From contig NZ_BMBS01000015.1 in the NCBI RefSeq assembly GCF_014634805.1, forward strand, positions 1 to 43,261: a stretch of DNA of 43,261 nucleotides, read 5' to 3'. This DNA is from Leuconostoc falkenbergense. Lineage in GTDB: Bacteria; Bacillota; Bacilli; Lactobacillales; Lactobacillaceae. Position numbers and translations under genes: made by a program. Below the pieces are notes generated by a model, which ran no database searches, was not told where the DNA came from, and worked only from the letters and a program-made list of their open reading frames with translations. Shown in pieces: positions 9,797-33,325 of this stretch (position 1 is the first letter of the stretch; every line of letters begins with the position of its first letter).

Positions 9797-9849
9797 TCGC
9801 CAAAAAGCATCGTAAAATACAACATCATGATATTGATGTGGCTAATATA

Positions 9850-9923
9850 ATATCTTCCTGCGTCAGTCTTAACTGCTTCAGGTTCAATGGGTATGATCTC
9901 AGCTCAAGGCACCCCAGATATCT
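9850..9923 (-). ncRNA. TPP (THI-box) riboswitch aptamer
   Basis: On the minus strand the THI-box core elements occur in order: GGGGTGCC, CTGAGATCATACCC, GAACCTGA and GCAGGAAG. The ends ATATCT and AGATAT can pair as P1. The aptamer precedes a strong terminator (9765-9796) and tenA, so thiamine pyrophosphate should switch off transcription. The controlled gene is broken in this sequence. The remainder of the 309-bp gap, 9940-10054, holds no gene or clear element. Confidence 0.95.
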
Positions 9924-9933
9924 TACATAAAAA

Positions 9934-23834: not shown

Positions 23835-24741
23835 CTATTTTTCTGATTTTTGAATGTCTGCCAATTGCTGATATTGGGCTAACATCCATTGACTATAAGT
23901 CTTCCCTTTGGGCATTGTCTCAGTTACTTTTAACACTGGTACAGAATATTGCTTTGCCAATTTAACTAATTCTGTGACCGTCTTGTCGCTTGCTTGGGTA
24001 TTTTGAACAAAAAAGGTAATTCGACGATTTTTGATATCATCTTGCATCGCTTTAATATCCTTCGGTGATGGATCTGTGCCATCTTCGACTGACTTAGCAA
24101 AATGAGTATTATTTTCGGTATAGCCTAGTTCTGCAAGTGCATAATCGAAAACAGGTTCGCTCACATCAACTTTTTTATTATCTGAATTAGCTTTTAATGC
24201 ATCAATTTTTGTTGTAATTGGTTTGAGTGAGGAGATGTACTTTTTGGCATTTGCTTTGAATTGCGCCTCATGTTTTGGATCAATTTTGGCGAACTTATTT
24301 GACAGATAAGTCACTAATTTTGGCATTGTTTGACTTTGATACCATAAGTGCGGATTATCGCCATTTTTTTTTGTTTAAGACATCTTCACCAACGCGAACG
24401 GAAGTGATTTTGTCATTTTTTGCTAACTTTGCCATCCATGAATCATAACCAATGCCATTGTAAACAACAAAATCAGCATTGGCAACTTCTTTTGCTACTT
24501 TGGCGCTTGGTTCATAATCATGAGGATCCACGTTGGGATTTGTAATGACTGATGTTACTGAACCATATTTGCCCAGTACTGCTTTGGCAGCTTCACCGTA
24601 AAAATCAACTGAAGAAACAACTTTTATTTTGTCATCTTGATGACTACTTTTTGCCTGCTTTGTCTGTTGACCCCACACAATGACAAGGATTACTGCCAAA
24701 ATGGCAACAATAATTGCGCCAATGGTAACACGTCGTTTCAT
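23835..24741 (-). pseudogene. ZnuA/AdcA-like metal-binding protein, +1 in A-run
   Basis: Cluster A-1 solute-binding protein, about 300 codons. The metal site region DPHDYEPSAK (first His), NPHLWYQ (second His) and SEPVFDYALAELGY are present. In the sense strand a run of nine A at 24364-24372 shifts the frame after DVLNKK; with eight A the protein reads straight through NGDNPHLWYQ. The N-terminus (MKRRVTIGAIIVAILAVILV) is an uncleaved-looking anchor with no lipobox Cys. The change may be a sequencing error, a real mutation or reversible slippage. Zinc is favoured over manganese because of the neighbouring Zur-like regulator, but the Glu-containing third site is compatible with Mn. Confidence 0.88.
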
Positions 24742-24979: not shown

Positions 24980-25435
24980 TTAATGGTTATTTTTCTCACG
25001 TTCCTGTTGGCAAATGTCACACAATCCAAATATCTCCAATTTGACGTTTAAGACCAAAAATTGTTGCAATTGAGACTGTAATTGCGGGGATAATGTCGAA
25101 TCTATCTTAATCACACGATGACAATTTTGACAAAAGAAGTGACCATGACGTGGTGACACAAAGTCACATTGATACTTAACCTTTAACTGACCATTTTCAG
25201 ATCGTTGCTCAATAATACCAAGATCCGTGAATTCTTTGATGTTGCGATATGTCGTCGTATGGCTGGCATTTGGGTAAATGCTTTGCATATAATCATCAAC
25301 CTCTGTCACTGACACATAACGATTTTCAAAATCAGACAAAAATTTCAACAAATCTTTGCGTTGCTTCGTTGTCCGCAAGTCACTTTTTTCCAGTATTGCT
25401 AAGCCCTTATCATATTGTGCTATGTTATCAGCCAT
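24980..25435 (-). CDS. zur: Fur-family metal regulator, probably Zur
   Basis: A 151-residue Fur-family repressor. The N-terminal winged helix (about 15-85) has KQRKDLLKFL and the recognition region ASHTTTYRNIKEFTDLGIIE. The C-terminal dimerisation domain has HGHFFCQNC and CDIC, the two CxxC pairs of the structural zinc site. It lies upstream of, and on the same strand as, the zinc-type ABC transporter with a terminator between. The intergenic region has two Fur-type boxes, so zinc-dependent repression of the transporter is inferred; Fur or PerR identity cannot be fully excluded. GAGG precedes the ATG. Confidence 0.85.
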   Translation of the reverse strand: MADNIAQYDKGLAILEKSDLRTTKQRKDLLKFLSDFENRYVSVTEVDDYMQSIYPNASHTTTYRNIKEFTDLGIIEQRSENGQLKVKYQCDFVSPRHGHFFCQNCHRVIKIDSTLSPQLQSQLQQFLVLNVKLEIFGLCDICQQEREKNNH

Positions 25436-25542
25436 CTACTTTAAACCTCTATCGACATGTCACTTAATCATTACATAAGCTATTATGCTTCAAAAAACGA
25501 AAATAGTCCAATTCTTTTGCTTAGTGTCTATCTGTTAGATAA

Positions 25543-27127
25543 TTAATTTTTCATTGTTTGCGTTGGCACATCTTTTTGGAGCCATTTTAATTTGGACCGT
25601 AACATTGCCATTGTATCAGGTAACACTAGTGCAGCCATTAACCAAAAAACTGGCAGTCCTTGAATTAAATAACGGGAACGGCCACCTTCAAATATCAAGA
25701 GATACATGAATAAACCAACAATAGACAGTCTTAATATTTGAGTCAATTTATTTTTGCTACGCCAGCCTAATGCAATCATAGACAGTAATAAAATCCAAAC
25801 AACTTGAGCAATATATCGAAAATCAGATAAATACTTTCCCTCCGTATAAACAAAATCTTCAAATAGTCGCGTCAATCCTGCTCCAGTAGGCTTAGCAGTC
25901 ATAAAGTTTCCCTCAATTAGCCATGCAAAAGTGCCATCTGAAGAGTTCCTATTTTGTTTAGAAATAAGAAACTTAATATAACCAAAAAAAACCTCGCTTT
26001 TTCAATCTTGCAATAAGATGTTTTTTTGAGTAGTCAACCATTGCTTTTTGACTGGGCTGCCTACCCATTGCCAATGCGTCTTTAGCATTATAGCCCCCAT
26101 TTCCACTAACACCCATATTAATAAAATGAATTGCTGGCACAGTGCGATGTGGTGTAATTTCAATCACTTGTTGTGACTCTATTTGATGATTAACATAAGC
26201 ATAACTCGTAACGACACCCACACATAGCAATAGTGCTATCATAATACTTTTAAGTTTTTGCCACTGAACGTCAATTCCCACTGAATTTCTAAAAAGATAA
26301 AGAAATTCAACCGCCACAATAGCTATGATAGGCACAATAGCCGATGGCTTTATAAAATAAATTGCCGTTAGGAAAAAGCCATTTCCCAACGTGGCGAATA
26401 AACGCCACACTAACTTAAAATTAGACTTTTGTGCGATGACATATGTCAAGATTAATCCAGAAACCAAGGGCATGACAACGACATCCGAGTATGGTACTAA
26501 AATCATAGGAAATACCAAAATCCAAATAGCATGCATGTATATGGTGGCGATTACTTTCTGACGATCAATTAAAGCTATTGTCAAAATATTTAGTAAAACT
26601 GCAACATCAAGGAAAATGACATTAACAATATCAAATAATAGCCAAGATGTACTATTTGCAAATACGGCAATTTGATGTTGCAATAACAACAAAGCCAAGT
26701 TGTTGGTGTACATACTAAAGTATGCTTTCAATTCATTACTATGATCAGGCAGGAGACCTTCGTGTATGGCACCCGGATCGAATCCGATACTTGGATGCGT
26801 ATGCAACACCAATATCACTTGAATCAGTATGACTAGAGATAATATAATTGGTGCAACGATACTGCCTTTATCTTTAAACAGCCATAACATCGATAATCGG
26901 AATTTTTTAAACACAAAGAAAGCTGACGCAATACCAACCATCAACAATAAAAATACAATGGTCACCCACGTTGTGCCTTCACCCAATGTTTGGGGTGTTA
27001 ATGTGTCACCAAGCGTTAAATTTGGCGACATCAAAGCAAAATATAGAGAAATAAAAATAAAAAAGTAAAATAGATAATCAATCAGATGATTCCCAAATTT
27101 AAAAAATGCCAATTTAAATTTTGTCAA
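25543..27127 (-). pseudogene. Large exosortase-associated membrane protein, +1 in T-run
   Basis: Polytopic membrane protein of about 527 codons with roughly a dozen helices and an extracytoplasmic HTHPSIGFDPGAIHEG loop, resembling GT-C-like glycosyltransferase architecture. I recall a family described as an XrtG-cluster integral membrane protein (TIGR03766) with this layout. The frame breaks in a run of eight T at about 25984-25991; with seven T it reads RGFFGYIKFLIS and continues through SSDGTFAWLIEGNF into the C-terminal helices to 25543. The TTG start at 27127 follows AAAGG. It is the last gene of the XrtG operon; a role in transferring or flipping a sugar-linked precursor is inferred only. 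Confidence 0.78.
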
Positions 27128-27144
27128 TGTTTAAGCCTTTCTGC

Positions 27145-27524
27145 TCAATCAGCAAGAGAAATTGAATAGAATCGTTTTGCCGATTCACCCAAATCTAATT
27201 GCACTAATTGAAAATGAATGACATCTAGTGCAGCTGTTAATTCATCAAACAACACATCAGCGAAATTTTCTAATGTCGGATTAATTGTTCTAAACGGTGC
27301 TATATCATTTAGCGTTTGCCCCGCAATTTCTGTAAATAATTTTGGACTAGTAACTCAATATCTTCAAATTTAACAACTTCAGATGTTGACGTAACAGGTG
27401 GTATGATATTTAGCACTACTTCCCAAGTGTGAGGATGTATCGTCCCTTGCCCATCAGCCCAACGAATGGCGTGGCTCGCGTTAATAAAGGTGCGTAATTT
27501 ATATTGAGATATTTTTTTAATCAT
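27145..27524 (-). pseudogene. 6-pyruvoyl-tetrahydropterin synthase-like protein, frameshifted
   Basis: PTPS/QueD-fold protein of the kind found in XrtG clusters (TIGR03112, as remembered). The N-terminal half (FINASHAIRWADGQGTIHPH, then TWEVVL) carries two of the usual zinc-histidine positions (ASHA and HPHTWE). The frame is lost near 27341: TATTTACAGAA should read TATTTAACAGAA, restoring LTEIAGQTLNDIAPF. Then INPTLENFADVLFDEL, the family's conserved segment, follows in another frame to the stop at 27145. The ATG at 27524 overlaps the glycosyltransferase stop (ATGATTAA), indicating coupling. Its function in this cluster is not known; QueD activity is not implied. Confidence 0.82.
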
Positions 27525-28863
27525 CTGTTTTACTTTTCTTAAACCGAGATAAGTCATCCAAAATGATTTGTTTAATGACTTTCAGTTCATTTTTAAAATT
27601 ATTTGTGCGCCACGTTGCAGAGTTTGTAATCATGTTGATGATACCAATGAATCTAATGATTGATACAATCATGTTATAGAGCGGTAACGTTAAGACAACC
27701 CACCATTTTCGTTTAAGATACTTTTTTTCTTCTTTGAAATCAGTCAACATTCTGTTTACTTGCCAATAAATTAAAATCGAAAATAGCACATAAAGTAAAT
27801 ACATTAACACAAAGGACGCCAAAATTAGAACAGCTGAATAACCATAAAACACTAAGACAAATAAACCAATCGTCCATATCAAACGAGGAAACAGGAACGT
27901 ATGATCAACCATTAAACGACTCACCATGAAGTTCTTGAAGAAATTGCCGATGTGCATATCTTTTGCCAAAAAGTCTGACGAAACGTCAACCTGTCCACGT
28001 TGCCACCTTTGTCGCTGCGTGTAAAGTTCTGAAACGCCATCAATGGGTTCAACATAGAAAATCGCGTTGTAACAAAAACCGACCTTTTTTCCTAATCGCT
28101 CACGAATTTGAAACGTCATATCCGTATCTTCGCCAACTGTATCGACGTTATACATATAGGTGCTGACTAATGTTTCACGTTTAAAAGCAGAGAAAGCCCC
28201 TGACATTGTAAATAGCTGATTCTTAGCTGATTCCATGCTTCGACCAAACATACATGCCTGTAAATATTCGAAGTACTCATTAACTCTTAAAACCCGTGCC
28301 TGCCACTTTTTTGTATCCTGAATCATTTTCTTATTAGTCAAAACGGCGCCAGCAGCAGCATCGATATCTGGATTATTTTCAAAATATAGCACTAAATTAC
28401 GTAATGCATCAGGCTGTAAGATACCATCTGTGTCAAGATTAATGACATACTGACCAATGCTATTATAAATTGCGGAATTCAACGCTTTCGCTTTCCCTTG
28501 ATCAGCGTCAATCCATTGCAAAAGTGCGTTGGGAAAAGCAACTTGTGCACGACCAAATTCACGAAAACTATTATCTTGGCTATTGTTATTTACAATCGTC
28601 ATTTGTATCAAATCTTTTGGATAAGTTGTATTCACAATTGACTCAATGCACTCAAATAATGTTTTTTCCGAATTGTAGACGGGTAAAATAATAGAAATCA
28701 TCGGTAATTTTTGCGGTATGGATAAAGGTTGATTCAATATTTTACTGTAATTGGTCCGAAAAGAATGCCAAAGTGTCGGAATAATTTCAAACAGTATTGG
28801 AATTAACAGCCAACTTGCCCAAAAGCCCAACTGATGAATTAATTGATTAATAAATGTATTCAT
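27517..28863 (-). CDS. XrtG-associated family 2 glycosyltransferase
   Basis: Processive-type membrane GT2 enzyme, 448 residues. One N-terminal helix (about 13-31) is followed by a GT-A domain: MISIILPVYNSEKTLFECI near 55, DQGKAKALN, LDTD (143-146), GED (244-246) and QRQRW (283-287). These are the D, DxD, TED-like and Q(Q/R)xRW motifs of BcsA-type synthases. Three or four C-terminal helices follow. The protein has no PilZ domain. Its ATG overlaps the xrtG stop (ATGA) with GGGAG upstream. It probably makes a polysaccharide or glycolipid for this exosortase system; the sugar is unknown. Confidence 0.9.
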   Translation of the reverse strand: MNTFINQLIHQLGFWASWLLIPILFEIIPTLWHSFRTNYSKILNQPLSIPQKLPMISIILPVYNSEKTLFECIESIVNTTYPKDLIQMTIVNNNSQDNSFREFGRAQVAFPNALLQWIDADQGKAKALNSAIYNSIGQYVINLDTDGILQPDALRNLVLYFENNPDIDAAAGAVLTNKKMIQDTKKWQARVLRVNEYFEYLQACMFGRSMESAKNQLFTMSGAFSAFKRETLVSTYMYNVDTVGEDTDMTFQIRERLGKKVGFCYNAIFYVEPIDGVSELYTQRQRWQRGQVDVSSDFLAKDMHIGNFFKNFMVSRLMVDHTFLFPRLIWTIGLFVLVFYGYSAVLILASFVLMYLLYVLFSILIYWQVNRMLTDFKEEKKYLKRKWWVVLTLPLYNMIVSIIRFIGIINMITNSATWRTNNFKNELKVIKQIILDDLSRFKKSKTDD

Positions 28864-29450
28864 GTTGTCTCCCGATTTTGCGATGCCACTTGGATTAATT
28901 GCCCACGAGTGAAAATTGTAAAGTAAAAAGTCAACATTAGTACGTAAAATAAGAGTCTTCCCAAAATGGAGTGAGCTAGAAAGAAACTATCACTGCCAAA
29001 AAGATGGAGACTTGTGGCCACAAAAGTTAATCGCACAATGTTTGCAGCAAAGATAAAAGCGACACCAGTCAATGCAAGCCACAATCTTTGTTGCACTTTA
29101 AACACTGGATAAAACGAAATGAGACTCACAAAAGCTGCTGTTTCAACAATACCAGAACATTCGTAGTCAACATTCATCAAAATAATTCGTTCATGATATA
29201 GCACTTGAATCACATGACCCAAAGGTAATGTACTAAAAATGCCAAAAAAGTCGCCAACTAAACCAACACCCCATGTCATAATAGTTGAAAATAGCCAAAT
29301 AGCATATGGTTTGCTCCATAATACTAAAACAATAAATAAACCTAAACTCCCCATCAAAAAATAAAATGCATCTAGTTTAGCACGCTTAAAAACTGACAGG
29401 CTATATATCCAAAGGAGCACTACTATTAAAATGATTGTTTTCATCAACAT
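28860..29450 (-). CDS. xrtG: Exosortase family protein XrtG
   Basis: Multi-helix membrane transpeptidase-like protein of the Gram-positive exosortase group (TIGR03110). From ATG 29450 the catalytic triad is visible: Cys98 (VDYECSGIVETAAF), Arg140 (FAANIVRLTFVAT) and His160 (FLAHSILGR), each next to membrane helices. Exosortases are predicted to cut and process C-terminal PEP-CTERM-like anchors, analogous to sortase; XrtG recognises the Firmicu-CTERM anchor. The candidate substrate is the preceding gene. The GTG at 29459 overlaps that gene's stop; ATG 29450 has GGGTG at better spacing. It is followed directly by the GT2 gene. Confidence 0.92.
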   Translation of the reverse strand: MLMKTIILIVVLLWIYSLSVFKRAKLDAFYFLMGSLGLFIVLVLWSKPYAIWLFSTIMTWGVGLVGDFFGIFSTLPLGHVIQVLYHERIILMNVDYECSGIVETAAFVSLISFYPVFKVQQRLWLALTGVAFIFAANIVRLTFVATSLHLFGSDSFFLAHSILGRLLFYVLMLTFYFTIFTRGQLIQVASQNRETT

Positions 29451-29451
29451 T

Positions 29452-30225
29452 TTATGCACCCGTATTTTTTTCTTTTGTTTGACGCTTTAGTCGCAATCGG
29501 TATCCAAAAAAGGCAATGAGAAGACCTAGAAACGCAATAATCCAAGGCCCAGATGAAGCGCCCACATACGTGATTGAAGCTTTTCCCTTAAAATATTGAC
29601 CATCTTTACCTTCAAAATCATCATACTCACCACTCGATGTGAGTGAAATTTCTGAATTTTCGGGAATTGTAACCGCTAAATCTTTGCGACTAATTCGAAA
29701 TTCATAGACATATTTAAACTTAGATTCATCACCTTTAACAGTTTCTACGTCAACATAGCCACCTTGCGTATCATGCACTAAATGCTGCCAATCACCAAAA
29801 GCTTGTGAAACATCAACAGAAAAAGCGTGTCCCTCACCATTAGTTACTGTGCCATTGCCGAGCTGAATTTGATAGGGTTTGCCATCAATAAATATATAAT
29901 ACTGTTGATGAAAATTGGCATACTTGTCTAATGTACTGAAATGATTTGACATGTCAGCATTTAAGTCATACCAGCTGTCAATATAAACGTAAATATAGTC
30001 CTCATCGTATGAAAGTTTGATATCACGTTGAAAATCAGTTTGAGTGCCGTTAATATCAGCTGGTTGGCTGGAATTCAACTGAGTCCCCGGTACGTTATCC
30101 CAGTCATTAAAATTGCCATCAATCTGAATACTGCTGGAATCAGCCGATACCCTTTCGACTAAATGAGTTGAGACAAAGAGTAGAGATATCACTAATACTA
30201 ATATGGTAAACATTGTTTTCTTCAT
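29452..30225 (-). CDS. Firmicu-CTERM anchored protein, probable XrtG substrate
   Basis: A 257-residue exported protein: signal peptide (about 1-29), then an extracellular domain opening IDGNFNDWD (35-43), which resembles CBM9/DOMON-type carbohydrate-binding domains. The end matches the Firmicu-CTERM sorting tail: GASSGPW (222-228), a hydrophobic stretch (IIAFLGLLIAFFGY) and a basic tail (RLRLKRQTKEK). GASSGP probably marks the XrtG recognition or cleavage region. GAGGAT precedes the ATG. It is the only CTERM protein in the window and lies immediately before xrtG, the expected dedicated-substrate arrangement. Confidence 0.88.
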   Translation of the reverse strand: MKKTMFTILVLVISLLFVSTHLVERVSADSSSIQIDGNFNDWDNVPGTQLNSSQPADINGTQTDFQRDIKLSYDEDYIYVYIDSWYDLNADMSNHFSTLDKYANFHQQYYIFIDGKPYQIQLGNGTVTNGEGHAFSVDVSQAFGDWQHLVHDTQGGYVDVETVKGDESKFKYVYEFRISRKDLAVTIPENSEISLTSSGEYDDFEGKDGQYFKGKASITYVGASSGPWIIAFLGLLIAFFGYRLRLKRQTKEKNTGA

Positions 30226-30306
30226 GTTTGCTATAATCCTCGCTATTGTATAATCCCCATCGTCATGATTGATGGCTTCCTAAGCTGTCGTTGCACTAAT
30301 ATTTAT

Positions 30307-31479
30307 TTAACGGTTCACGATGACGCCGTCCACAGTAACTGCATTTTTGGCAAAATATAGATAAGACTCGGCGCGATTGTAAAACATTTCCTTGGTTTTA
30401 TCTTTTTCATGCCACTCGGCAACGCCAATTGAGATTGTGACGCCAAAAGTGCCTTTATCAGTATTCACAGAGAGCTCATTGACGGCCTTTAAAATATTTA
30501 AAGACATTTTCTGTGCCTCAGCATAATCTGTATTTTCTAGAATAATGCCAAACTCTTCGCCGCCAATTCGAAATAGCTCCGCACCTTTGTAGTTAACAAT
30601 ATTTTCCCTGATAGCGTGTGATACCTCTTTTAAAACAGCATCACCTATTAAATGCCCATAAGTATCATTAACCAGCTTAAAATTATCTATATCCAATATG
30701 ATAAACGCTAGTTGAATTGTTTTATTTTTTGCCGCTTTAAACGATTGGTCAAAACTTTTTTCAAAGGCGGTACGGCTACTCAATTGCGTCAAAAAATCAG
30801 TATTAATACGTTCAATCAAAGCTTCATATTGTATACGACCGACGCTATTAACCAAATGAATGCAGGTCATATAAACAATCAACTTACAAATCAGAGCAAT
30901 AAACAGGAGCACATCAAGTTCTTGACTAGGTAAAATCAATAACCCCCACGACGTAGCAAATACAATCATTGCAATTACAAATAATAATTTGTTTTCAATA
31001 ATTGCCACTGAATATTTTTGAATAACAAAGGCAGAAACAGCGATGACTAGCAAACCTATTACAGCTATTGCAAGGCTAAGTGGCGTGATATCATGAATAC
31101 CTCTATTAAAATTGAAGTTAATAAAAAATATGGTTGCAACCAAGGTTAAAATGTAAACTTGACCCCGTTCATTTAGCATTAATAGAAAATAAAACCACAA
31201 CAAAACTTGTAAATTACATTCGGTCAACCATTGTGTATAACTATCAATCGAAAGCAAATAACTTTGCAACATAAATATGCTAAACAGCGGTACAAAAGAG
31301 CGAATGAAGTGTAGGAAATTTTCGTATTTTTTTGTCTGAAATGCTGATGCCATAGCATTTAAAATCATGCAGCACAGTGAAATAATGCCGACGACAATAA
31401 AAAAAGAAAAAACACTAGTTAAGTTAAAAAGGCCAAAGAATATGCTAAAAAATTCTGAAATGATCGTCATTTTGATCAC
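30307..31479 (-). CDS. Membrane GGDEF diguanylate cyclase
   Basis: About eight transmembrane helices in the first 210 residues, then a GGDEF domain. From GTG 31479: LDIDNFKLVNDTYGH near 263-275 (substrate/metal site) and GGEEF at 306-310, an active variant. No RxxD product-inhibition site is found in the expected place (YKGAELFRI before GGEEF). GTG 31479 follows GAGAGG; earlier starts to 31524 lie further inside the EAL gene. The gene overlaps the EAL gene end by 35 bp. It should make c-di-GMP near the membrane. It is followed after 81 bp by the CTERM protein gene with no terminator seen. Confidence 0.9.
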   Translation of the reverse strand: MIKMTIISEFFSIFFGLFNLTSVFSFFIVVGIISLCCMILNAMASAFQTKKYENFLHFIRSFVPLFSIFMLQSYLLSIDSYTQWLTECNLQVLLWFYFLLMLNERGQVYILTLVATIFFINFNFNRGIHDITPLSLAIAVIGLLVIAVSAFVIQKYSVAIIENKLLFVIAMIVFATSWGLLILPSQELDVLLFIALICKLIVYMTCIHLVNSVGRIQYEALIERINTDFLTQLSSRTAFEKSFDQSFKAAKNKTIQLAFIILDIDNFKLVNDTYGHLIGDAVLKEVSHAIRENIVNYKGAELFRIGGEEFGIILENTDYAEAQKMSLNILKAVNELSVNTDKGTFGVTISIGVAEWHEKDKTKEMFYNRAESYLYFAKNAVTVDGVIVNR

Positions 31480-32221
31480 GCTTATTCCTCTCAACATGTT
31501 TTTTACAATCAGTCGGACAAGCATTGGTTTTAAACAAAAATCCCTGTTGCAAGCTTACGCCCAATGTTTGTAAGTTGTCAGAAACACTCTCCGTCTCAAC
31601 CCCTTCAACAACTAAATCCATGTCATGCCTACCAACAATCGACTGTAACAAATGAATTTGCAGCACAATCTCGTCTGGTGTCATCATTTTCTCAAGATGA
31701 CGATAAGAAATCTTGAGACGATCAAGATATTGAATCGTAATTTCAAGATTGCCTAATGAATTATTACCTGTTGTTAAATCATCCAATGCTAGTCGATAAC
31801 CCAATTTTTTTAAGCGTTTAAACGCCAAAACATTAATCGTTTCACCATACTGACCATAACGTCTTAACGTTGGAATTTCAGTGATTTCTAAAATTAAGCG
31901 AGACCGATTTTCTTGTGAAATATTCTTCATAATTTCAAAAGTCGTTTCGTATTCAATTTCTTGTTGATCAAGGTTCAACGAAAAATGTATTTCTGGATTA
32001 TCAACTAAAATACGGTTCACTTCCTGCACAATATGCTTCAAAAATTTGGCATGGATTGTTTCCGATTTTGTCATCCACGCATACTCATCTTTGGGAAAAC
32101 CTGAGACTATATTATTACGTAAAAGTAATTCAAATTCTATTATCTGTTCATTTTTTAAATGTCGAATTGGTTGTCCTACGAAGTAAAAATTTTTAATTGC
32201 ATCAGTTATAATAGTATTCAA
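31445..32221 (-). CDS. EAL-domain c-di-GMP phosphodiesterase
   Basis: Stand-alone EAL domain, 258 residues, no membrane segment. Catalytic residues are present: E31-L-L-L-R (EAL loop), N83 (FSLNLD), E112 (ILEITE), D147-D148 (ALDDLTTG), K170 (RLKIS), E206 (VVEGVET) and Q225-Q226 (LQQGF). It should therefore hydrolyse c-di-GMP to pGpG. The start is a TTG at 32221, with AAAGGAG about 10 nt upstream. It is the first gene of the run leading to xrtG and overlaps the GGDEF gene, so both enzymes are made together. No clear promoter was found in 32222-32363. Confidence 0.9.
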   Translation of the reverse strand: MNTIITDAIKNFYFVGQPIRHLKNEQIIEFELLLRNNIVSGFPKDEYAWMTKSETIHAKFLKHIVQEVNRILVDNPEIHFSLNLDQQEIEYETTFEIMKNISQENRSRLILEITEIPTLRRYGQYGETINVLAFKRLKKLGYRLALDDLTTGNNSLGNLEITIQYLDRLKISYRHLEKMMTPDEIVLQIHLLQSIVGRHDMDLVVEGVETESVSDNLQTLGVSLQQGFLFKTNACPTDCKKHVERNKRDQNDDHFRIF

Positions 32222-32363
32222 AACACTATCGCTCCTTTAATTTCAAATATTTATGTCAATTAAAAATCTTTACTATTTTAACGAAGAACATTATATTTAA
32301 ATTTATGTAATAATATCTTAATTTTATCACACCTTTTATACTTTAATAAGTCCTATTATGTAG

Positions 32364-32397
32364 ACAAAAAACGCTAACCTATTCGGCTAGCATTTTC
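32364..32397 (-). terminator. Intrinsic terminator of an aldo/keto reductase gene
   Basis: Minus strand GCTAGCC, loop GAATA, GGTTAGC, followed by TTTTTT. It lies just after the stop at 32408 and upstream of the EAL gene. Confidence 0.85.
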
Positions 32398-32407
32398 GTT
32401 TTGACTA

Positions 32408-33325
32408 TTAAATACCACTAAATACACGATCAATCGTCTGATAGTCATCATCTGACAAGTCAACTTTTAACGTGGCAGCATTGTCGGCCACTTGTTGCGG
32501 TTGTCTTGCACCAGGAATCACAACCGCAATATCAGGATTTTTGATATACCACGCCAAAACAGTCTGGGCAACAGTAGCTTGATGACTACTAGCAATCTGT
32601 TTGACCACATCTATTCCAGTCATGATCTTATGAAATTGATCTGCTGAAAACTGCTTAAACTTGCTACTATCTTCTGGCTGATACTTACCCGTAAGTAATC
32701 CTGAGGCTAATGGAAAGTATGGCACAAATTGAATGTTATTTTCCTTTAGGTAGGGCCACAGCTTGGTTTCAGCTTCACGATCACCTAAGTTGTAATGATC
32801 TTCTACAAAATCAACGCCACCATCTTTATTGGCTTCTTTAATTTGTTCTAAACTAAAATTAGAAACACCGACAGCCTTGATTTTGCCAGCTTGTTTTAGC
32901 TTAGTTAAAGCGTCTACGGCTTCATCTTTAGGCGTATCGTCATCCGGAAAATGGATATAAAACAAATCAATATAATCTGTTTTGAGACGTGTCAAAGCAT
33001 CATCAACAGCTTGTGTTAAAAAAGCTGGCGTGTTATTAATTTTTAAATCGTGATTAGGATCTTGCGCTGCTTTAGTCGCAATTTTAAAGTTTTCACGCGG
33101 ATAATTTTGTAAAACATCCCCAATGATTTCTTCGGATCGACCCAATCCGTACATAAATGCCGTATCAATCATTTGAATATTTGAATCTAATGCTTCTTTT
33201 ACAAGGTCATAACCATCTTGATCACGAAGGCCGTCAAACAAATTGTGTCCACCGACTTTATTTGTGCCAATCCCTAACTTTGCAGCCTTATGATTTAGTT
33301 GATTTACAACGTCTTTATCTATCAC
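32408..33325 (-). CDS. Aldo/keto reductase
   Basis: NADPH-dependent aldo/keto reductase, 305 residues, TIM-barrel layout. The catalytic tetrad is recognisable: Asp and Tyr in IDTAFMYGLGRSEE, Lys in FKIATKAA and His in LFYIHFPDDD. GVSNFSLEQI and the C-terminal VIPGARQPQQVADNA, which contacts the cofactor, fit the YhdN/Tas-like group. It starts at a GTG with AGGAGGAG upstream. Monocistronic with its own terminator. Physiological substrate unknown. Confidence 0.88.
   Translation of the reverse strand: MIDKDVVNQLNHKAAKLGIGTNKVGGHNLFDGLRDQDGYDLVKEALDSNIQMIDTAFMYGLGRSEEIIGDVLQNYPRENFKIATKAAQDPNHDLKINNTPAFLTQAVDDALTRLKTDYIDLFYIHFPDDDTPKDEAVDALTKLKQAGKIKAVGVSNFSLEQIKEANKDGGVDFVEDHYNLGDREAETKLWPYLKENNIQFVPYFPLASGLLTGKYQPEDSSKFKQFSADQFHKIMTGIDVVKQIASSHQATVAQTVLAWYIKNPDIAVVIPGARQPQQVADNAATLKVDLSDDDYQTIDRVFSGI

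Follow-up and report, generated by a model that had tools for sequence, protein, structure and literature searches.

A cyclic di-GMP enzyme pair coupled to an XrtG exosortase gene cluster in Leuconostoc falkenbergense

The DNA analysed here, referred to as the window, comprises positions 1 to 43,261 of contig NZ_BMBS01000015.1 from Leuconostoc falkenbergense (assembly GCF_014634805.1). According to NCBIfam and Pfam profiles its minus strand carries, from 32221 down to 25543, genes for an EAL and a GGDEF protein, the putative enzymes of cyclic dimeric GMP (c-di-GMP) turnover, followed by a Firmicu-CTERM protein, the exosortase XrtG, a family 2 glycosyltransferase (GT2), a protein resembling 6-pyruvoyltetrahydropterin synthase (PTPS) and a TIGR03766 membrane glycosyltransferase (GTC in the gene orders below). 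Five of these genes are open, and the PTPS-like and TIGR03766 genes are broken in frame:

31445..32221, minus strand: EAL-domain phosphodiesterase (predicted), 258 amino acids; PF00563, E-value 4e-24
30307..31524, minus strand: GGDEF diguanylate cyclase (predicted), up to 405 amino acids; PF00990, E-value 9.9e-37
29452..30225, minus strand: Firmicu-CTERM surface protein; TIGR04145, 87.7 bits
28860..29459, minus strand: exosortase XrtG; TIGR03110, 186.5 bits
27517..28863, minus strand: XrtG-associated processive GT2, 448 amino acids; TIGR03111, 575.8 bits
27309..27557, minus strand: PTPS-like (T-fold) gene, first piece; TIGR03112, 51.4 bits
27160..27342, minus strand: PTPS-like gene, second piece, in another frame; TIGR03112 positions 52-112, 45.2 bits
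25973..27127, minus strand: TIGR03766 membrane glycosyltransferase (GT-C-like), N-terminal piece; 430.8 bits, profile 1-369
25543..25902, minus strand: TIGR03766 gene, C-terminal piece; 136.4 bits, profile 401-495

An initial annotation made from the letters alone (the sequence-only reading) had described seven genes on one strand, joined by overlaps or short gaps and without a terminator. Place and strand were found as described and five families score over their cut-offs, whereas the PTPS-like and TIGR03766 genes are split; as a whole, the observation is partly confirmed. Judged from the limits of the open reading frames (ORFs) with the longest start, EAL and GGDEF overlap by 80 nt, GGDEF and CTERM are separated by 81 nt, and overlaps of 8, 4 and 41 nt are seen at CTERM/XrtG, XrtG/GT2 and GT2/PTPS, respectively, so that from EAL to GT2 neighbouring genes indeed overlap or lie no more than 81 bases apart. 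A scan of positions 25400-32600 returned five terminator-like sites, compared to 3.8 (sd 2.5) in shuffled sequence. None of them lies in the EAL-to-GT2 junctions, for which the lack of a terminator holds, but a terminator-like hairpin is present between the PTPS and TIGR03766 genes (27186-27169, minus strand). The spacing from the EAL to the GT-C-like gene is compatible with a single transcript.

The Firmicu-CTERM protein (TIGR04145 cut-off 50 bits) has a signal peptide-like N-terminal end with an IDGNFNDW motif close to it, as seen in an alignment of 34 of 44 rows, and ends in a hydrophobic segment followed by a basic tail. Neither Pfam, searched with the 34 aligned members, nor the PDB, searched by profile, convincingly assigned the CTERM domain to a known carbohydrate-binding family. 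XrtG likewise passes its curated cut-off (102.75 bits); a failure of either profile would have counted against the sequence-only reading. The exosortase contains Cys101, Arg143 and His163, which we take to be its triad and which are conserved in 90/91, 91/91 and 90/91 rows, respectively. In the GT2 (TIGR03111 cut-off 363.95 bits) the DxD, GED and QRQRW motifs, presumably marks of a processive synthase, are invariant across 16 aligned sequences, and a profile search of the 448-residue protein found no PilZ domain. Elsewhere (L217:9986-12829) a TIGR03111-type GT2 shares a single 947-residue ORF with a sulfatase-family domain, perhaps a polymer-modifying fusion.

The EAL protein (PF00563, 85.7 bits; cut-off 31.3) shows no hydrophobic segment over threshold and retains nine of nine residues (E31, N83, E112, D147, D148, K170, E206, E209 and Q226) to which we ascribe catalytic roles; from its sequence it looks like an active phosphodiesterase. 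In a comparison of 16 rows, six of them away from XrtG, all nine residues are kept in nine of the ten near-XrtG rows, the window included. In Pediococcus cellicola, the EAL protein encoded behind the XrtG cluster (L126:5462-6304, the same as L172:13446) carries N at the position of D148 and T at that of E206, and a receptor role is thus possible there. The GGDEF protein (PF00990, 126.6 bits; cut-off 23.8) possesses a hydrophobic N-terminal half and a GGEEF site and lacks the RxxD inhibitory site; translation may in fact begin tens of bases after the ATG given by the ORF limits. Across the genome (1.96 Mb, 94 contigs) we found a single GGDEF and a single EAL match, both in the cluster. PilZ gave no match in the genome, while the same search was positive in 5 of 14 controls, and the BcsA of sister species gave no full-length match, the only hits being two partial, weak GT2 matches. 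On these searches, PilZ and BcsA were rejected as the c-di-GMP target in this genome. No c-di-GMP-I riboswitch was found, in a search that was positive in no control, and c-di-GMP-II was not searched genome-wide.

To place this arrangement in context, 251 Lactobacillaceae genomes were sampled, with a clear GGDEF match defined as E <= 1e-10. XrtG occurs in 46 of them, EAL in 108, GGDEF in 120 (109 clear) and PilZ in 25; TIGR03112 was found in 47, with homologues over cut-off in 42. A clear GGDEF match is present in 44 of the 46 XrtG genomes compared to 65 of the 205 without XrtG (genus-stratified exact p 4e-9), and EAL in 44/46 compared to 64/205 (p 2e-8). Eleven genomes with weak GGDEF matches (E 1e-7 to 5e-4), among them the XrtG-less G038 of genus g38, were omitted here; restoring them gives 44/46 against 76/205 with a stratified p of 3e-8. 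The association persists when any single genus is left out (p <= 2e-6) and when g1 and g38 are left out together (2e-4). Within Leuconostoc, GGDEF is found in 5/5 XrtG genomes and 0/6 others, each of the five having exactly one GGDEF and one EAL match, and genus g38 shows 7/7 and 0/3 (1/3 counting the weak match), respectively. One genome scored as XrtG-negative (G019) carries GT2-PTPS-GTC-EAL-GGDEF-GGDEF-EAL at a contig end, with four c-di-GMP enzyme genes in a row (L245:4130-10739), so that for this genome the count errs on the cautious side. Among 295 genomes sampled across the order, 11 have XrtG above the cut-off; ten of these belong to Lactobacillaceae and one does not. The view that c-di-GMP signalling is sparse among lactic acid bacteria has to be qualified, given clear GGDEF in 109/251 genomes, EAL in 108/251 and GGDEF in 5/11 Leuconostoc.

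Physical linkage points in the same direction. A GGDEF gene and XrtG are no more than 10 kb apart in 7/46 genomes from 5/15 genera, where random placement predicts 1.2 (p 1.2e-4, a value that ignores relatedness). We examined 127 XrtG loci, made up of two sets that share duplicates, one of them of 80 loci: EAL or GGDEF occurs within the stretch in 27/127 loci and in 18/80 of the latter set, and three of these 18 (L169, L207 and L216) have the enzymes solely at distances above 7 kb. The order CTERM-XrtG-GT2-PTPS-GTC is found in 38/79 and 26/47 XrtG loci of two overlapping sets. One or both c-di-GMP enzymes are located inside XrtG operons of Enterococcus gallinarum, Ligilactobacillus, Limosilactobacillus, a Streptococcaceae bin and others, in varying gene orders. 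In E. gallinarum the one-strand order XrtG-GT2-PTPS-GTC-EAL-GGDEF-CTERM is a circular permutation of that in the window, with ORFs that touch or overlap save for gaps of 44 and 6 bases (GTC/EAL overlapping by 1 and EAL/GGDEF by 82 bases, and GGDEF and CTERM 44 bases apart). The Streptococcaceae bin shows GGDEF-EAL-CTERM-XrtG-GT2-PTPS-GTC with EAL and CTERM overlapping by 59 bases, and L. saerimneri shows GGDEF-CTERM-CTERM-GTC-XrtG-GT2-PTPS-EAL with 4-base overlaps at GGDEF/CTERM and PTPS/EAL, its GGDEF gene being perhaps two ORFs. In Secundilactobacillus similis a fused GGDEF-EAL ORF of 616 residues (L167:13428), in which no match to the pattern GG[DE]EF was found, stands directly behind the XrtG cluster and overlaps a GTC piece by 26 bases. 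A Firmicutes-type cluster of the order EAL-GGDEF-XrtG-GT2-PTPS-GTC-CTERM (L197) lies on a contig binned as the archaeon Candidatus Methanovirga, an assignment that is probably a binning error. Co-occurrence and linkage together argue against a chance adjacency of the pair and the XrtG genes, which was therefore rejected; such an adjacency would have counted against the sequence-only reading. A conserved seven-gene Leuconostoc operon was rejected as well: the pair is located elsewhere in four of the five XrtG-bearing Leuconostoc (G054, G183, G202 and G219). In L. miyukkimchii a GGDEF gene is found behind the XrtG cluster, with no EAL gene within the stretch.

In a GT2 tree of 59 of 90 rows, the window protein groups with those of L. 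citreum and L. miyukkimchii, and the remaining three from Leuconostoc fall together with that of the Streptococcaceae bin. Leuconostoc thus contains two XrtG cluster lineages (L091, L093 and L095 as against the window, L097 and L145), which suggests separate acquisitions. For the window GGDEF and EAL proteins the closest company in the trees is that of E. gallinarum and G086, apart from other Leuconostoc. In approximately unbiased (AU) tests, a grouping with other Leuconostoc was rejected for GGDEF at p 4e-6, the tested group having been picked after an earlier tree and six rows having been removed before the tested one, and for EAL at p 0.013, with the group set before the EAL tree and after the GGDEF result. 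Hence, the signalling pair and the XrtG cluster appear to have different histories, yet are found together. That pairs of different origin accompany XrtG within one genus is easier to reconcile with a functional need than with joint inheritance.

On this comparative evidence, a coupling between c-di-GMP enzymes and XrtG is well supported. We further propose, with moderate confidence, that the seven genes form one module in which c-di-GMP activates the GT2, and the resulting polymer and the CTERM proteins cleaved by XrtG are handled jointly. Hereby, a diguanylate cyclase in the membrane, free of product inhibition, and an EAL phosphodiesterase in the cytosol would set the c-di-GMP level, and c-di-GMP would in turn activate the TIGR03111 processive glycosyltransferase, probably post-translationally. 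This enzyme would make and export a surface polymer, on which the TIGR03766 protein may add or transfer sugars at the outer side, and XrtG would cleave at the C-terminal signal of the CTERM protein and pass the product to the wall or to the polymer. Either the PTPS-fold protein or the GT2 complex could serve as the c-di-GMP receptor. The families, the catalytic residues, the operon-like spacing, the co-occurrence and the repeated linkage can be read from the sequences. The sequence-only reading had already suggested c-di-GMP control of a CTERM-linked polymer and is supported in part: comparative genomics bears out the enzyme coupling, and the activation by c-di-GMP, the polymer, its link to the CTERM protein and the identity of the receptor are what we infer.

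Several observations weigh against this proposal. Long-branch warnings on the trees weaken both AU tests, and this assembly has a frame break in each of the PTPS and TIGR03766 genes. For 39 of the 46 XrtG genomes, the 10 kb to either side of XrtG contain no GGDEF gene, some of the stretches ending at contig ends, and Oenococcus oeni (G145) and L. selangorensis (G010) have XrtG and neither c-di-GMP enzyme. In the sister species G054 and G183 the pair is found far from XrtG, next to a cellulose-synthase-like (BcsA-like) GT2 that bears PilZ. PilZ itself co-occurs weakly with XrtG (stratified p 0.037), so that a general biofilm habit may contribute to the association. The sister loci and the 39 genomes, along with the GGDEF genes of 65/205 XrtG-less genomes, would be expected if the pair were a general c-di-GMP module with its target elsewhere and the adjacency to XrtG a by-product of both serving biofilm life and being retained by the same species. 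Such a module would, however, have to do without PilZ or a full-length BcsA match in the window genome, 30 of the 46 XrtG genomes have GGDEF and no PilZ, and the enzymes are embedded in XrtG operons of several lineages; we therefore consider this explanation unlikely. Alternatively, the EAL protein could be a degenerate receptor instead of an enzyme. This has a precedent in PdeB of Lactobacillus acidophilus, encoded in the gts glycosyltransferase operon and described as binding c-di-GMP in PMC6123363, and the substituted P. cellicola protein would suit such a role. With nine of nine residues intact in the window, and likewise in nine of ten near-XrtG rows (window counted), the possibility was rejected for the window and we give it very little credence.

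A further explanation, which concerns the state of this copy, is that the locus is decaying, with PTPS and TIGR03766 as pseudogenes in this strain, the module out of function here and the pair as a remnant. The scores of both families lie below cut-off (TIGR03112, 51.4 bits, with pieces at 49.8 and 45.2, against 69.35; TIGR03766, each piece against 500) because a frame break splits each gene, and TIGR03766 is also split in O. oeni (L136/L147), L. nangangensis (L116/L150) and a few others. The TIGR03766 break, however, falls within a T8 run and the PTPS break beside GGGG. A znuA-like gene at 23835-24741 of the window is likewise divided into two ORFs at a run of nine A, which hints at assembly indels. 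Breaks at such sites suit sequencing indels, so that decay is not demonstrated, and for TIGR03766 an error in base count is possible. Moreover, the EAL, GGDEF, CTERM, XrtG and GT2 genes are open, with the checked key residues present. Decay thus has a considerable, though not the better, chance of being right here, and it would be compatible with the proposed module in relatives.

The PTPS-like protein is the boldest of the receptor candidates. It belongs to the T-fold group by its fold and three zinc-type His, and differs from PTPS/QueD enzymes at the Asp-His pair, which we take to be catalytic. In an alignment of 47 of 85 rows, 0/47 TIGR03112 proteins have D at the Asp column and 0/47 have H at the His column, which holds D in 8/47; an extra Arg is found four residues past the anchor acid in 45/47. 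It is conceivable, though we rate the chance as low, that TIGR03112 proteins are c-di-GMP receptors of a new class. Such a T-fold pseudoenzyme would have retained the zinc-type His and the acid that anchors a purine or pterin, lost the catalytic pair and acquired the Arg, and would bind c-di-GMP to switch on the XrtG-linked GT2. If so, polymer synthesis and exosortase-dependent surface display would both be driven by one second messenger, in lactobacilli as well as in other Firmicutes. In clostridial XrtG clusters (L221:374-3421 and L218:4918-7992) a PF10131 membrane protein, about 1000 residues long, carries a fused PTPS-like domain, and these clusters also have a separate PTPS-like gene. In G201 a PTPS-like gene is found away from XrtG with an adjoining GGDEF gene (L243:8184-10228).

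Compared to the XrtG/Firmicu-CTERM system as defined by its families, the window has all five (TIGR03110, TIGR04145, TIGR03111, TIGR03112 and TIGR03766) in the order CTERM-XrtG-GT2-PTPS-GTC, and differs by the EAL and GGDEF genes in front and by the broken PTPS and TIGR03766 genes. BcsA-type synthases with PilZ, as in G054 and G183, share a processive GT2 beside an EAL-GGDEF pair, but the window GT2 is devoid of PilZ. Among PDB sequences, the one closest to the window EAL protein is 3kzp, presumably a Listeria protein. The receptor of the Listeria Pss exopolysaccharide system is PssE, and to our knowledge this system has no exosortase. The window genome, for its part, holds no second GGDEF match. 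The Pss polymer is likewise that of a low-GC Gram-positive bacterium and is reported to be c-di-GMP-induced (PMC4125290). For L. acidophilus, the accessible text of He et al. 2018 (PMC6123363) describes a dgcA-pdeA operon for a diguanylate cyclase and a phosphodiesterase beside the gts operon with its BcsA-like GT2, and an increase in exopolysaccharide upon DgcA overexpression. The likeness to the window thus lies in cyclase and phosphodiesterase genes beside a GT2; the receptor PdeB is a degenerate EAL protein, whereas the window EAL looks active, and that text describes no exosortase or CTERM protein, unlike the window.

In the open-licence PMC literature, judged by titles and the starts of abstracts, we found no link between XrtG and c-di-GMP, and these searches turned up no function for the XrtG system; within this searchable body the coupling appears undescribed. 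The L. plantarum XrtG system is listed among cell-wall genes over-expressed in interferon-activating strains (2026, PMC12854382), where, in the accessible text, 'cyclic di-GMP' appears solely in a reference title, and one XrtG-associated GT2 is listed in PMC8951740. XrtG systems are common in lactobacilli (46/251 genomes), and a tie to c-di-GMP would offer a handle to raise or lower their activity. Conversely, the XrtG system is a possible target for the c-di-GMP enzymes of PilZ-less lactobacilli (30/46), and the coupling offers a candidate for an undescribed receptor fold.

The neighbouring genes are unremarkable: on one side those of a zinc ABC importer and one for a Fur-family regulator, on the opposite side one for an aldo/keto reductase. 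A thiamine pyrophosphate (TPP) riboswitch over gathering score at 9838-9926 on the minus strand is the sole Rfam match in the window.

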